From assembly GCA_021157815.1 (NCBI GenBank), contig JAGGVT010000036.1, positions 1-9,031 on the forward strand: DNA of 9,031 nucleotides. The letters run 5' to 3'. A model generated the notes under the pieces. The model was not told where the DNA came from. It saw nothing but the letters and a program-made list of their open reading frames with translations, and searched no databases. The stretch is from a bacterium. Lineage in GTDB: Bacteria > JAJVIF01 > JAGGVT01. Shown here in pieces: positions 1,063-8,199 of this stretch; within the stretch, counting starts at the first letter, position 1, and every line of letters starts with the position of its first letter. The position numbers were made by a program, and so were the translations under genes.

Positions 1063-1728
1063 ATGACAAAAAAAGAAAAAGAAAAACCAACCGACCCTCT
1101 TGAGTTACTACGAGAGGAAATTGTACGAACAGCAAAAATCTCCCACGAGAAAAACTTCGGTGCCGGGATTGGCTCAAACTACTCAATCCGAACAGGCAAA
1201 GAGGAAATGCTTATCACGCGAACCGGAGTAAATAAAGCGTGGCTTACTCTTGAAGATATTATTCAGGTTAAATTCAACGGCGAGGTTATCTCCGGTAATC
1301 ATGAGGTTTCATCTGAATTCCCGATGCATGTCTGGATTTACAGAGCATTGCCGGATACCGGCGCGATAATTCACTCCAATCCGCCATATCTGACAGCATT
1401 CGCAGTCGCGGGACAGGGATTGGAAACCGCGCATTTAACCGAGCCATACCTTCAAATCGGCGACTACATCCCACTTGTTCATTATGCGACTCCATCAACA
1501 GAGGACCTCGCGACAATGTTTAAACCGTATCTTCGCCCACAGCGAAAAATCTACCTGATGCAGAATCATGGCGTGGTTGTCGTTGGTAAAGACATGACAG
1601 ATGCATACAACGCTATGGCGATGGGTGAAAACTATGCCCATGTCATGAGCCTTTTTGGTTTACCCGCACCGAAGATAATCGATAACGCGGATTTGAAACT
1701 GCTGAACGACACATTTAAAAACAGTTAG
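1063..1728 (+). CDS. Class II aldolase/adducin family protein
   Basis: A 221-residue protein of the usual length for L-fuculose-phosphate-aldolase-type enzymes, which cleave or epimerise sugar phosphates using a divalent metal. Family signatures appear in order: GIGSNYSIR (35-43, phosphate-loop position), SSEFPMHVWIYRALPD (83-98, with Glu85 as the acid/ligand), AIIHSNPPY (101-109, metal-ligand region) and MQNHGVVVVGKD (166-177, third ligand His169). The family's HxH metal motif here reads His104-Ser-Asn106, so one of three metal histidines is replaced. The substrate cannot be told. Members of this fold also act as ribulose-phosphate epimerases, decarboxylases or dehydratases. The N-terminus is very Lys/Glu-rich (KKEKEKEKP). 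The start has only a weak upstream purine stretch (about 1052-1059). The gene is convergent with pgeF, and its TAG stop lies in the first unit of the octamer array. Confidence 0.88.
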   Translation: MTKKEKEKPTDPLELLREEIVRTAKISHEKNFGAGIGSNYSIRTGKEEMLITRTGVNKAWLTLEDIIQVKFNGEVISGNHEVSSEFPMHVWIYRALPDTGAIIHSNPPYLTAFAVAGQGLETAHLTEPYLQIGDYIPLVHYATPSTEDLATMFKPYLRPQRKIYLMQNHGVVVVGKDMTDAYNAMAMGENYAHVMSLFGLPAPKIIDNADLKLLNDTFKNS

Positions 1729-1931
1729 TAAGTTAGCAGGTTAGCAGGTTAGTAAGTTAGCAAGTTAGCAAGTTAGCAGGTTAGCAAGTTAGCAGGTTAG
1801 TAGGTTAGCAGGTTAGCAAGTTAGCAGGTTAGCAAGTTAGCAGGTTAACAAGTTAGCAAGTTAGCAGGTTAGCAAGTTAGCAGGTTAGCAAGTTAGCAGG
1901 TTGGTACGTTAATAGGTTAGTAGGTTGGTAG
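1724..1931 (+). repeat. Tandem octamer array GTTAGYAR, 26 units (left arm)
   Basis: The 208 bases divide exactly into 26 units of 8 bp, consensus GTTAGCA followed by A or G. Variation falls almost only at position 6 (C/T) and position 8 (A/G). Units with A and G at position 8 tend to alternate, giving a 16-bp higher-order period. Divergent units occur near the right end (1900-1931) and at 1844. The first unit contains the TAG stop of the aldolase gene. Every unit carries TAG on the plus strand and, where CTAAC is intact, TAA on the minus strand; because 8 is not a multiple of 3, all frames are stopped on both strands. Confidence 0.95.
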
Positions 1932-2012
1932 GTAGCCCGGGAATCCATTTCCCGGGAAAAACAGCGCTACCCCTGTAACCCGGTGTCCCTTCACCGGGGT
2001 TCCCTAGTTACA
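1931..2012. repeat. Two nested hairpins in the spacer between the octamer arrays
   Basis: Hairpin A has an outer stem GGTAGC (1931-1936) with GCTACC (1966-1971). It encloses or overlaps the perfect stem CCCGGGAA (1936-1943) with TTCCCGGG (1949-1956), loop TCCAT. Hairpin B has an outer stem TGTAAC (1974-1979) with GTTACA (2007-2012). It encloses the near-perfect CCCGGTG (1979-1985) and CACCGGGG (1992-1999). Neither is followed by a T tract, so neither is a standard terminator. They look like parts of a dispersed palindromic repeat. Confidence 0.7.
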
Positions 2013-2103
2013 CTTTATTTCAGTATGACTGATTTTTGTTGATTAAACAGATTGCTTTTATAAGCGAAAGGAAGAAATGGATTTCTGAGGACAGACTAAA
2101 GAA

Positions 2104-2129
2104 CCGACCATTCGCTTCGCGAATGTCGG
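2104..2129. repeat. Hairpin with GCGAATGTCGGAATGAC-type repeat end
   Basis: CCGAC plus ATTCGC (2104-2108, 2110-2115) pairs with GCGAAT plus GTCGG (2119-2129) around a TTC loop, with one bulged C at 2109. The sequence continues GGAATGAC, the same ending as the MITE-like element at 8015-8175, which suggests a relic of the same broad class of dispersed repeats. Confidence 0.6.
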
Positions 2130-2155
2130 AATGACAAGTTTTGGATGTAATAAAC

Positions 2156-2283
2156 CTACTAACGAACTAACTTGCTAACCTGCTAACCTGCAAACTTACT
2201 AACCTACTAACCTGCTAACCTGCTAACTTGCTAACCTACTAACTTACTAACCTGCTAACTTGCTAACCTGCTAACTTTCTAAC
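2156..2283 (-). repeat. Tandem octamer array, 16 units, inverted (right arm)
   Basis: The 128 bases divide into 16 units which read GTTAGYAR on the minus strand, opposite to the array at 1724-1931. Changes again fall mainly at positions 6 and 8. Exceptions are units at 2164 (GTTAGTTC), 2188 (GTTTGCAG) and 2276 (GTTAGAAA). The last unit (2276-2283) supplies the TAG stop of pgeF (2281-2279). Both flanking genes therefore run into the array in the same sense orientation, and a transcript crossing the whole spacer could fold the two arrays into one very long hairpin. Confidence 0.93.
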
Positions 2284-3064
2284 TTCTTTCTTCTTTCTTC
2301 TTTGCGATGAATCCCGCCTGACTTCCGAGGACTTTGCCGTCCCGCCTGTATGAGTAGAACAAATCCTCGTGGCAATGGCTGCAGAGCGATTGTGAATGTA
2401 TGTTCTGTGGATTAACTCCCATTGATGTCAACTGATAAAAAACATATCCCCTGAGATCGAAAAAACGCTTTTTATCTTTCTTGAGAAGAAATCCGAGCGC
2501 AGTTGGGTCTTTTTCGATTAATTCGGAAACAACATCATCCCCTACTTCATAACATTGAGCCGCGATGCTTGTCCCCAGAAGCGCGGTTATGTCAGTTGGC
2601 ATCAACGCAAACTCACGGCACATTGTTACCAGAAGTTTGGTTGGCAGATTGAGAATCGTTCCCTTTCGTCCGCAATGCGCATTCGCAATCACGCCGCTTT
2701 CGACATGAACGAGAATAAGGCTCAGGCAGTCAGCAGACATACTGAACAGGCAGATATCGGGTTCGTTTGTGATTAACCCATCGTTTTCAGGAATAACTGT
2801 GATTTGCTCCTTGAGATCGGCGCTTTTGACAATTGTGATGTTATCCGTATGAACCTGCTTTTGGAACACTAATTTGTGATTCGCCAATCCAAGCCTTTGA
2901 GCATAATCAAGAATCACTGACGAATCGATTAATTCAGTTCTCGCGGGGAAAACCGGTGATTGCAGCCCCTCATTCCTTTTAGATGTGAATCCGTGAATAA
3001 ATCCCTTTTCCAAAAGTGATTGAGTGTGAAAAATACTCAAACCGTTTATCTGTGTGAAGTCCAT
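2279..3064 (-). CDS. pgeF: PgeF/YfiH (LACC1-type) family enzyme: purine nucleoside phosphorylase or peptidoglycan editing factor
   Basis: A 261-residue cytoplasmic protein of typical family length (COG1496, formerly 'polyphenol oxidase/laccase domain'). Characterised members are zinc enzymes with purine nucleoside phosphorylase/adenosine deaminase activity, or act in peptidoglycan precursor quality control. The three expected metal ligands are present: His72 in QKQVHTDNI, Cys113 in SADCLSLIL and His130 in AHCGRKGT. Also visible are NDGLIT (94-99), CYEVG (171-175), FFDLRG (201-206) and LFYSYRRDG (235-243). Departures from family consensus are AHAGWRG becoming AHCGRKG and the late TGR becoming LGS. 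The C-terminus KKKEERS is encoded by a 7-bp microsatellite next to the octamer array. There is no Shine-Dalgarno; a TGCTATAAT box lies 8 bases before the ATG, suggesting a leaderless mRNA. The gene is convergent with the aldolase. Confidence 0.9.
   Translation of the reverse strand: MDFTQINGLSIFHTQSLLEKGFIHGFTSKRNEGLQSPVFPARTELIDSSVILDYAQRLGLANHKLVFQKQVHTDNITIVKSADLKEQITVIPENDGLITNEPDICLFSMSADCLSLILVHVESGVIANAHCGRKGTILNLPTKLLVTMCREFALMPTDITALLGTSIAAQCYEVGDDVVSELIEKDPTALGFLLKKDKKRFFDLRGYVFYQLTSMGVNPQNIHSQSLCSHCHEDLFYSYRRDGKVLGSQAGFIAKKKEERS
2283..2303 (-). repeat. Microsatellite (CTTCTTT)x3 at the 3' end of pgeF
   Basis: Three perfect 7-bp units encode the basic/acidic C-terminal tail of PgeF and touch the octamer array. 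Loss or gain of one unit would shift the frame, but only for the last few residues, since the array supplies a stop in every frame. Confidence 0.85.
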
Positions 3065-3395: not shown

Positions 3396-3424
3396 ATTTA
3401 ATTTGTACCCGGTACAAATTAAAT
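3396..3424. repeat. Perfect palindrome, copy 1 (GTACCCGGTAC core)
   Basis: Arms ATTTAATTTGTACC (3396-3409) and GGTACAAATTAAAT (3411-3424) are perfectly complementary around a single C. The length and symmetry fit a dimeric repressor operator or one end of a small non-autonomous element. It is related to the copy at 3514-3545. Confidence 0.75.
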
Positions 3425-3513: not shown

Positions 3514-3545
3514 AAATTAAATTTGTACCCGGTACCAATTAATTT
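3514..3545. repeat. Imperfect palindrome, copy 2 (GTACCCGGTAC core)
   Basis: The same core as copy 1 (TTTGTACCCGGTAC then CAATTAATTT), with one mismatch and one indel between its arms. Its right arm touches the stop codon of the response regulator gene (3547-3545). Its centre lies 120 bp from that of copy 1. Confidence 0.7.
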
Positions 3546-7437: not shown

Positions 7438-8014
7438 TTCATACATCAGGTGTGCCCCCTGATACAGGATATGACACCATGCCCAATAAACCTCTTTAAT
7501 TAAGAGGGCTTCCTTATTAAACTGACAAATAACTGCTTTAAGCAGATCGATAAAACTGAAAGGATTAGGGCAACATTAACTAACTAAAATTACTTCATCA
7601 CAAACGACAACAAACCTAACATAGAACACCATACTTACTAACTATAACGCATTTCTAAATAATTACTATAATTCATTGCATACTTAAATAATCGGTCAAA
7701 ACAAACATAACTAAATTCCATCAAGAACATCTAAATTGTAACCATTTGATCCTAAATAATTAGCTCAGATTATACACCATAAATCAGATTTTGTTAAGTA
7801 ATTTATTTAAGATAATTGGATATGAGTGTCTGGATTAAATTGGCAGTAAGAAAGAACCTCACGCTGTGAGAGTCAGCTCTCTTGAACTATCATAATCGGG
7901 AAACTATAATTGATTGGCACATGATTTTACAGGTTGCCTGGAAAGTCGTTGCATTTTATTGGTAGAGAATAAAAATAAAATTGGTCGCTGAAATCATTAA
8001 TCGTCAATTAACCA
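7438..8014. other. Long AT-rich non-coding region, no gene recognised
   Basis: About 580 bp with dense stop codons on both strands and only tiny open frames. Small dyads occur: ATCAGG/CCTGAT (7445-7463), CCTCTT/AAGAGG (7491-7507), CTGCTT/AAGCAG (7533-7545), and two mutually exclusive hairpins CTCAC/GTGAG and GAGAG/CTCTC (7858-7881). The word CTAAATAATTA occurs twice, near 7654 and 7752. None identifies a function. Confidence 0.5.
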
Positions 8015-8175
8015 GTCATTCCCGCGAAAGCGGCTGTTGAAAAAGGGCTGAATGTAGAGGGTAGGTCTCTGTGCCTATCCTAAATATTGGCATAAATACA
8101 GGGCAACCACGGAGAGTTGCCCCTACGGTCTGGGACAAAACGTGGTTTTTCAACAGCCACTTTCGCGGGAATGAC
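8015..8175. mobile_element. MITE-like element with 30-bp terminal inverted repeats
   Basis: The ends 8015-8044 and 8146-8175 are inverted copies with 29 of 30 bases matching (GTCATTCCCGCGAAAG at the outer end, GGCTGTTGAAAAA inside). Between them lie two hairpins of the same geometry, 7-bp stem and 8-base loop: GGGTAGG with CCTATCC (8059-8080, one G-T pair) and GGGCAAC with GTTGCCC (8101-8122). It contains no credible gene. No clear target-site duplication is visible. It ends 36 bp before rsmD, so it may carry or replace that gene's promoter. Confidence 0.75.
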
Positions 8176-8199
8176 GGAATATTATCCTCAGTCTGACTT

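Follow-up and report, generated by a model that had tools for sequence, protein, structure and literature searches.

Heptamers of the sequences GGGAATC (Xanthomonas) and GGGGA(T/C)T (Nostoc) lie at most 50 bp from a stop codon on the coding strand or from a start codon on the non-coding strand, and may overlap the stop (Rehm et al. 2015, PMC4692102). Direct repeats of another heptamer, TAACTGA, are known from Beggiatoaceae, cyanobacteria, and Bacteroidetes, where they are placed mostly just upstream of start codons (MacGregor 2015, PMC4679880). REP/BIME elements are GTAG-tagged palindromes associated with RAYT transposases, and they lie downstream of genes, to which they can supply a TAG stop (PMC3733652). 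Ribosome termination structures (RTS; Chemla et al. 2020, PMC7518266) lie directly downstream of stop codons and restrict the re-initiation of translation. Here we describe a family of tandem octamers with the consensus GTTAGYAR that has the same polarity relative to genes as the Rehm heptamers.

The window, i.e., the whole analysed stretch of 9,031 nucleotides, contains two opposed octamer arrays at the ends of two convergent genes. Gene A (1063..1728, + strand; an ORF of 221 aa) encodes a class II aldolase/adducin-domain protein (PF00596, E 3.7e-42), and gene B (2279..3064, − strand; an ORF of 261 aa) encodes a Cu-oxidase_4 protein of the multi-copper polyphenol oxidoreductase/laccase family (PF02578, E 2e-53). 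The + array (1724-1931, + strand) consists of 26 octamers in the sense orientation of gene A, with degenerate distal units, and the − array (2156-2283, − strand) consists of 16 octamers that have the same consensus on the − strand and are sense to gene B. Both arrays, as well as the 224-bp hairpin-bearing spacer between them, had been noticed in the first-pass annotation and proved to be real, as the window holds 36 three-unit matches (with at most 2 mismatches), compared with 0 in 200 dinucleotide shuffles. Their description as exact-period octamers is correct for the period, which is exactly 8 with all units in phase, but not for every unit, since the consensus is matched exactly by 22 of 26 units in the + array and 13 of 16 in the − array. 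The arrays had also been placed between the two genes. In fact, the first octamer of each array is the source of the TAG stop of the adjoining gene (1726-1728 on the + strand for gene A, 2281-2279 on the − strand for gene B), and each array thus begins within a gene. The contiguous, head-to-tail arrangement with an exact period is that of slippage-type simple sequence repeats (VNTRs, with units of 1-9 bp), and a CRISPR array was rejected because no unique spacers separate the repeats. An Rfam search returned no match. Beside the array of gene B, the heptamer CTTCTTT occurs three times without mismatch at the coding end of this gene (2283-2303).

The spacer (1932-2155) holds two hairpins, both predicted folds on the + strand. 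The first, GGTAGC..GCTACC around CCCGGGAAtccaTTTCCCGGG (1931-1972), is GTAG-headed and REP-like (GTAG plus a hairpin at 1932-1956). The second, GTAACCCGGTGTCCCTTCACCGGGG (1975-1999), is REP-like and GTAA-headed, and has many relatives located 3′ of arrays elsewhere in the genome. The true REP-like units of the window are those in the spacer, not the octamers. A search of both strands between 1724 and 2283 for intrinsic terminators acting in one or both directions, i.e., for GC-rich hairpins with a run of T behind them on the exit strand, found no terminator-like site. Two other structured regions of the window lie away from the arrays. Two near-perfect palindromes around AATTTGTACCCGGTACAAATT (3396-3424 and 3514-3545) lie in the gap that separates the laccase-family gene from a gene for a LuxR-type regulator, and similar palindromes are present in L111. 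A MITE-like nested inverted repeat (GTCATTCCCGCGAAAGCGGCTGTTGAAAAA ... TTTTTCAACAGCCACTTTCGCGGGAATGAC) occupies 8014-8185 and precedes a methyltransferase-like gene of the Cons_hypoth95 family (PF03602).

The arrays of the window belong to a genome-wide family. The whole genome (3.2 Mb in 221 contigs, 91% complete) contains 1991 three-unit matches (890 + 1101, at most 2 mismatches) vs none for a backwards control octamer. This number, together with the presence of the same arrays on a phage contig that belongs to another metagenome record, shows that the arrays are not an isolated assembly artefact, which the first-pass annotation had kept as an alternative. In a genome sample of 1.62 Mb (140 contigs, at most 20 kb each, plus the window) we found 66 arrays of 3-40 units each, and no second abundant short tandem repeat family. 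Eight of the 66 arrays reach the end of a fetched stretch, compared with 1.8 expected, and the unit numbers may be underestimates. Of the 1072 units, at least about 99% have the same letter at each of positions 1-3 and 7; position 6 is C (60%) or T (36%), and either purine, A or G, occurs at position 8. Slippage and drift do not explain the constancy outside positions 6 and 8, and we count this against the reading that we prefer below. Three genomes of the same class (the phylum is represented by four genomes in the set searched) contain no arrays, which indicates that the arrays were gained fast or are easily lost.

The orientation of the arrays relative to genes was determined with neighbouring genes identified by simple hexamer-scored ORF calling, on which all polarity counts rest. 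For arrays with two neighbours, the gene behind the GTT end was the nearer one in 45 of 50 cases (p = 4e-9); the G-richer strand thus points away from the nearest ORF, as in the class defined by Rehm et al. (2015). More than a half of the arrays with a gene behind them (33/60) start at −24 to +15 nt of a same-strand stop codon. In the two-neighbour set such stop-adjacent starts were found in 29 of 50 arrays, whereas random placement, repeated 2000 times, gave 6.3 on average and never more than 15. An antisense end at a convergent stop was found in none of 56 arrays. The expectation of sense-oriented arrays grouped at the 3′ ends of genes was thus borne out. In 12 of the 33 stop-adjacent arrays, the TAG stop of the gene is part of the array itself, and some other arrays begin 3′ of an intrinsic terminator rather than at the stop. 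The remaining arrays mostly lie 5′ of a gene, again directed away from it. A 3′-UTR role is inapplicable to the 22 of 60 arrays at the 5′ side of the gene behind, which also counts against our preferred reading. In co-directional gaps with an array 5′ of the downstream gene, a 3′-side array was present as well in 6 of 7 cases. At 3′ flanks, single octamers outside arrays were sense in 9 cases and antisense in 7, and thus without strand bias.

An association of the arrays with convergent genes, raised in the first-pass annotation, was not supported. Convergent gaps account for 8 of the 42 array-bearing gaps (19%), which is no enrichment, as among all gaps no shorter than 60 bp 119 of 738 (16%) are convergent. 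Facing arrays are present in just 7 of the 42 array-bearing gaps, so a long two-array stem is not the rule, and the idea of the facing pair as the functional unit was not supported either. The facing pair of the window represents a particular arrangement of arrays that are polarised individually. Outward arrays on the 5′ side of genes, the genome-wide polarised family, and the folding of a single sense array had all been overlooked.

The two strands of the repeat differ in predicted RNA folding. In the sense fold predicted for a single array, each helix joins two GUUAGC segments by six base pairs (two G-C, two U-A, and two G.U). When the first 18 units of the window's + array were folded, the sense strand gave −49 kcal/mol (z −11.7) and the reverse strand −11.2 kcal/mol, and sense RNA was predicted to fold more strongly than antisense RNA in 56 of 56 arrays (mean −0.26 vs −0.05 kcal/nt). 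With DNA parameters, 18 units gave 0 for two unit types, and −14 and −30 kcal/mol for the other two. The fold is predicted directly at the stop codon, where an RTS would sit. A read-through transcript carrying both window arrays was, as had been proposed earlier, predicted to form a very long stem (MFE −281 kcal/mol, z −18). However, about one third of permuted octamers fold equally well in tandem, and the two C-bearing units rank 72 and 76 of 210 among permuted octamers in fold strength, so the folding of the octamer could be a coincidence. The frequency of unit variants did not correlate with their predicted effect on the fold (Spearman −0.19, p = 0.40). An RNA-structure constraint on the unit was rejected on the grounds of these ranks and of this lack of correlation. 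Moreover, the T-rich unit types of Bacteroidota fold weakly, another point against our preferred reading. As permuted octamers fold too and variants ignore the fold, the fold is a plausible, not established, cause of the polarity.

The internal order of the units bears on how the arrays change in length. Unit order within arrays recurs at a lag of 2 units (z 6.2) and of 4 units (z 5.0), and imperfect units are commoner distally than proximally (83 vs 44 of 466 units; 26 arrays vs 8). Whole-unit length variation at orthologous sites was seen in Pseudoalteromonas. The Pseudoalteromonas arrays are nearly pure GTTAGCAA, and their unit number differs within all six orthologous sets, e.g., 5, 7, 11, 11 and 21. 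Such differences are what replication slippage produces, and slippage is probably the source of the arrays in the window's genome. The earlier suggestion of a slippage origin is thereby upheld as to the way in which arrays change length. Copying of arrays between loci was rejected, because the runs of unit order shared by different loci barely exceed those in shuffles. The 3′ flanks of many Pseudoalteromonas GTTAGCAA arrays carry a related 28-bp stretch (CACTAGACTGCCTACCACTTGTGTCAAG and variants; L059, L062, L067, L075, L086, L093-L096), often followed by single inverted octamers (TCGCTAAC), which resembles a small element with unequal octamer ends.

Among the matches listed, the exact four-unit pattern occurred in Pseudoalteromonas, Glaciecola, Marinomonas, Moorena, several Bacteroidota, a Planctomycetota MAG, Veillonella, and Desulfosporosinus, a set of genomes picked by the octamer pattern itself. 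At independent loci of these other taxa, again among the matches listed, stop-adjacent arrays were sense in 17 cases and antisense in 2 (p = 0.0007), and the gene behind was the nearer one for 24 of 33 arrays (p = 0.014). Stop-adjacent sense arrays were found also in the cyanobacterium Moorena (L061, L074, L091). Apart from the query, none of the 295 Bacteroidota sampled had the octamer, nor had any of 77 genomes of another phylum, and the backwards control octamer forms arrays in five Bacteroidota. A universally favoured octamer was rejected on this basis. With the octamer this rare, and with control octamer arrays elsewhere, the sequence shared across phyla may reflect convergence, and the polarity common to the taxa is a stronger result than the common sequence. 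The control octamer, GATGATTG/AATGATTG, forms arrays at about 20 places in one Bacteroidota genome (G303), and also in viral contigs L224-L227, beside a terminator.

On the phage contig from a separate metagenome record (L221), GTTAGYAR arrays are located right after portal-, protease-, and capsid-like genes (the names of these and of a terminase-like ORF were read by eye, not from a family search), and the contig carries tandem array-plus-hairpin units. A dispersed repeat, CCGCCCATACAGCC...GGGCGGCACCC, is present at about 7543-7641 of L221 and on many contigs of the window's own genome at about 80-95% identity, linking the phage to the host lineage. The spread of arrays by phages was rejected, as viral contigs gave 3 matches to the four-unit pattern vs 4 for the control.

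We interpret the window arrays as members of a slippage-grown GTTAGYAR family whose orientation is filtered by effects on transcripts and which may act in the 3′ UTR in the manner of REPs or RTS, and give this interpretation a probability of about 0.45. It proceeds from the family, the polarity, the stop-codon supply, and the predicted one-strand folding as observed; we infer selection as the cause of the polarity, and likewise every downstream effect. Octamer arrays lie at the border of gene and spacer DNA, their length would shift by the gain and loss of whole units, and their orientation would be filtered by the effect of the repeat within a transcript. A sense array after the stop would fold into a rod whose GUUAGY/GUUAGY helices depend in part on G.U pairs, and which may be tolerated or useful in a 3′ UTR. 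Such a rod could mark the mRNA 3′ end, hinder 3′-5′ exonucleases, and discourage translation beyond the stop; REPs and RTS are thought to act likewise. RNA of the (GUUAGCAG)n type would form GUUAGC helices, and its reverse complement, the nearly unstructured orientation found near start codons, would not. Facing arrays would be a minority case, in which read-through RNA can make one long duplex. Since unit number varies, the arrays would be tunable 3′-end elements. It is doubtful whether the octamer goes as far as being a one-strand RNA folding tag, mostly unfolded as DNA and forming a G.U-dependent rod in sense RNA, that several phyla would have kept independently, and in that orientation only, as a length-tunable 3′-UTR element.

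The main rivals of this interpretation are a Rho-based one-way barrier and a neutral product of strand-biased slippage. In the neutral case, slippage would amplify the octamer only in one orientation to transcription, e.g., when the G-richer strand is displaced, coding DNA would be purged of it, and the arrays would have no function. The recurrence of unit order, the unit numbers in Pseudoalteromonas, and the lack of arrays in the three class-level relatives fit such an origin, as does the same polarity of unrelated units in Xanthomonas and Nostoc (PMC4692102). However, 5′-side arrays and the second arms of facing pairs oppose the transcription of the nearest gene, and the near-constancy of positions 1-3 and 7 next to freely varying positions 6 and 8 speaks against a neutral product; we regard this origin as rather unlikely. 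A barrier would make use of the other strand: the inbound CTAACYTG repeats, which are C-rich, G-poor, and unstructured, are a candidate Rho loading site, and outward arrays would end inbound transcripts, antisense ones from the 3′ side and read-through ones from the 5′ side. One rule would then cover arrays on both sides of genes; some arrays start 3′ of an intrinsic terminator instead of at the stop, the inbound strand is predicted to be nearly unstructured, and rho is present in the genome. Nevertheless, cyanobacteria lack Rho according to PMC13289151, and Moorena, Rho-less on that account, also has stop-adjacent sense arrays. Additionally, in three co-directional gaps the inbound array is merely 19-44 bp ahead of the start codon. 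We therefore consider the barrier rather improbable.

The arrays could also be the arms of a MITE- or REP-related element that inserts between genes and is moved by a Y1-type transposase. Nine Y1_Tnp matches in the genome correspond to Y1-type (RAYT-like) transposases, and REP-like heads of the kind found in the spacer, GTAGC(C/T)CGG or GTAAC(C/T)CGG, of which the sampled genome has 204 (187 of them intergenic), are present in 43% of array gaps vs 13% of length-matched gaps. The facing arms in 7 gaps and the tandem array-plus-hairpin units on the phage contig point in the same direction. Most gaps, however, have one arm, the unit order is hardly common to different loci, the spacers vary by locus with no constant core between the arms, and no target-site duplication was noticed, making such an element very unlikely. 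Finally, a telomerase-like enzyme could have added octamers to broken DNA ends from an RNA template, with wobble at positions 6 and 8. Such a process would account for the outward direction of the GTT strand, for the random order of the four unit types at every locus, and for facing arrays, which look like two capped ends joined. It is hardly credible, since no RVT_1 reverse transcriptase was found in the 91% complete genome, the distal ends, which would be the newest, are more degenerate than the proximal ones, and the slippage periodicity is present.

The octamers share features with each of the systems described above. RTS are, like the arrays, stable RNA structures (predicted in our case) directly after a stop codon, but they are ordinary short structures, unrelated in sequence and found by folding energy. 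Like REPs, which have been proposed to act as RNA hairpins, the arrays are multi-copy, mostly downstream of genes, and supply TAG stops. However, REPs are DNA palindromes of 20-40 bp with a GTAG or CGTC tag, and the octamers are tandem and non-palindromic in DNA. The TAACTGA repeats share with the octamers a patchy occurrence in distant phyla, an intergenic location, stops in all frames, and a strand bias at gene borders, but differ in the unit, in copy number (2-6), in their location mostly before start codons, and in having no predicted RNA structure.

A close parallel is that of the Rehm heptamers. Both are dispersed intergenic tandem repeats that are nearly always nearer to the ORF behind the G-strand, and the Nostoc heptamer has, as does GTTAGYAR, a Y-degenerate position (PMC4692102). 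In contrast to the heptamers, the octamer has a unit of 8 instead of 7, and its arrays reach 40 units as opposed to a preference for 4. The heptamers have G-tracts for a G-quadruplex; the runs of G in the octamer consensus do not exceed 2, so it is not of the G-quadruplex type, and its sense RNA has a predicted G.U-paired fold instead. The first-pass view that the repeat is not a named family is accurate for this octamer, as no paper with its exact strings was found in a literature search that did without most subscription journals, but missed this close published parallel (PMC4692102). That a different octamer obeys the heptamer rule suggests a general force on bacterial intergenic repeats, for which selection on transcripts and strand-biased slippage are the candidates. 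The polarity itself is already published for heptamers; the GTTAGYAR arrays extend it to a different repeat unit, to another phylum, and to a phage from the lineage of the host.
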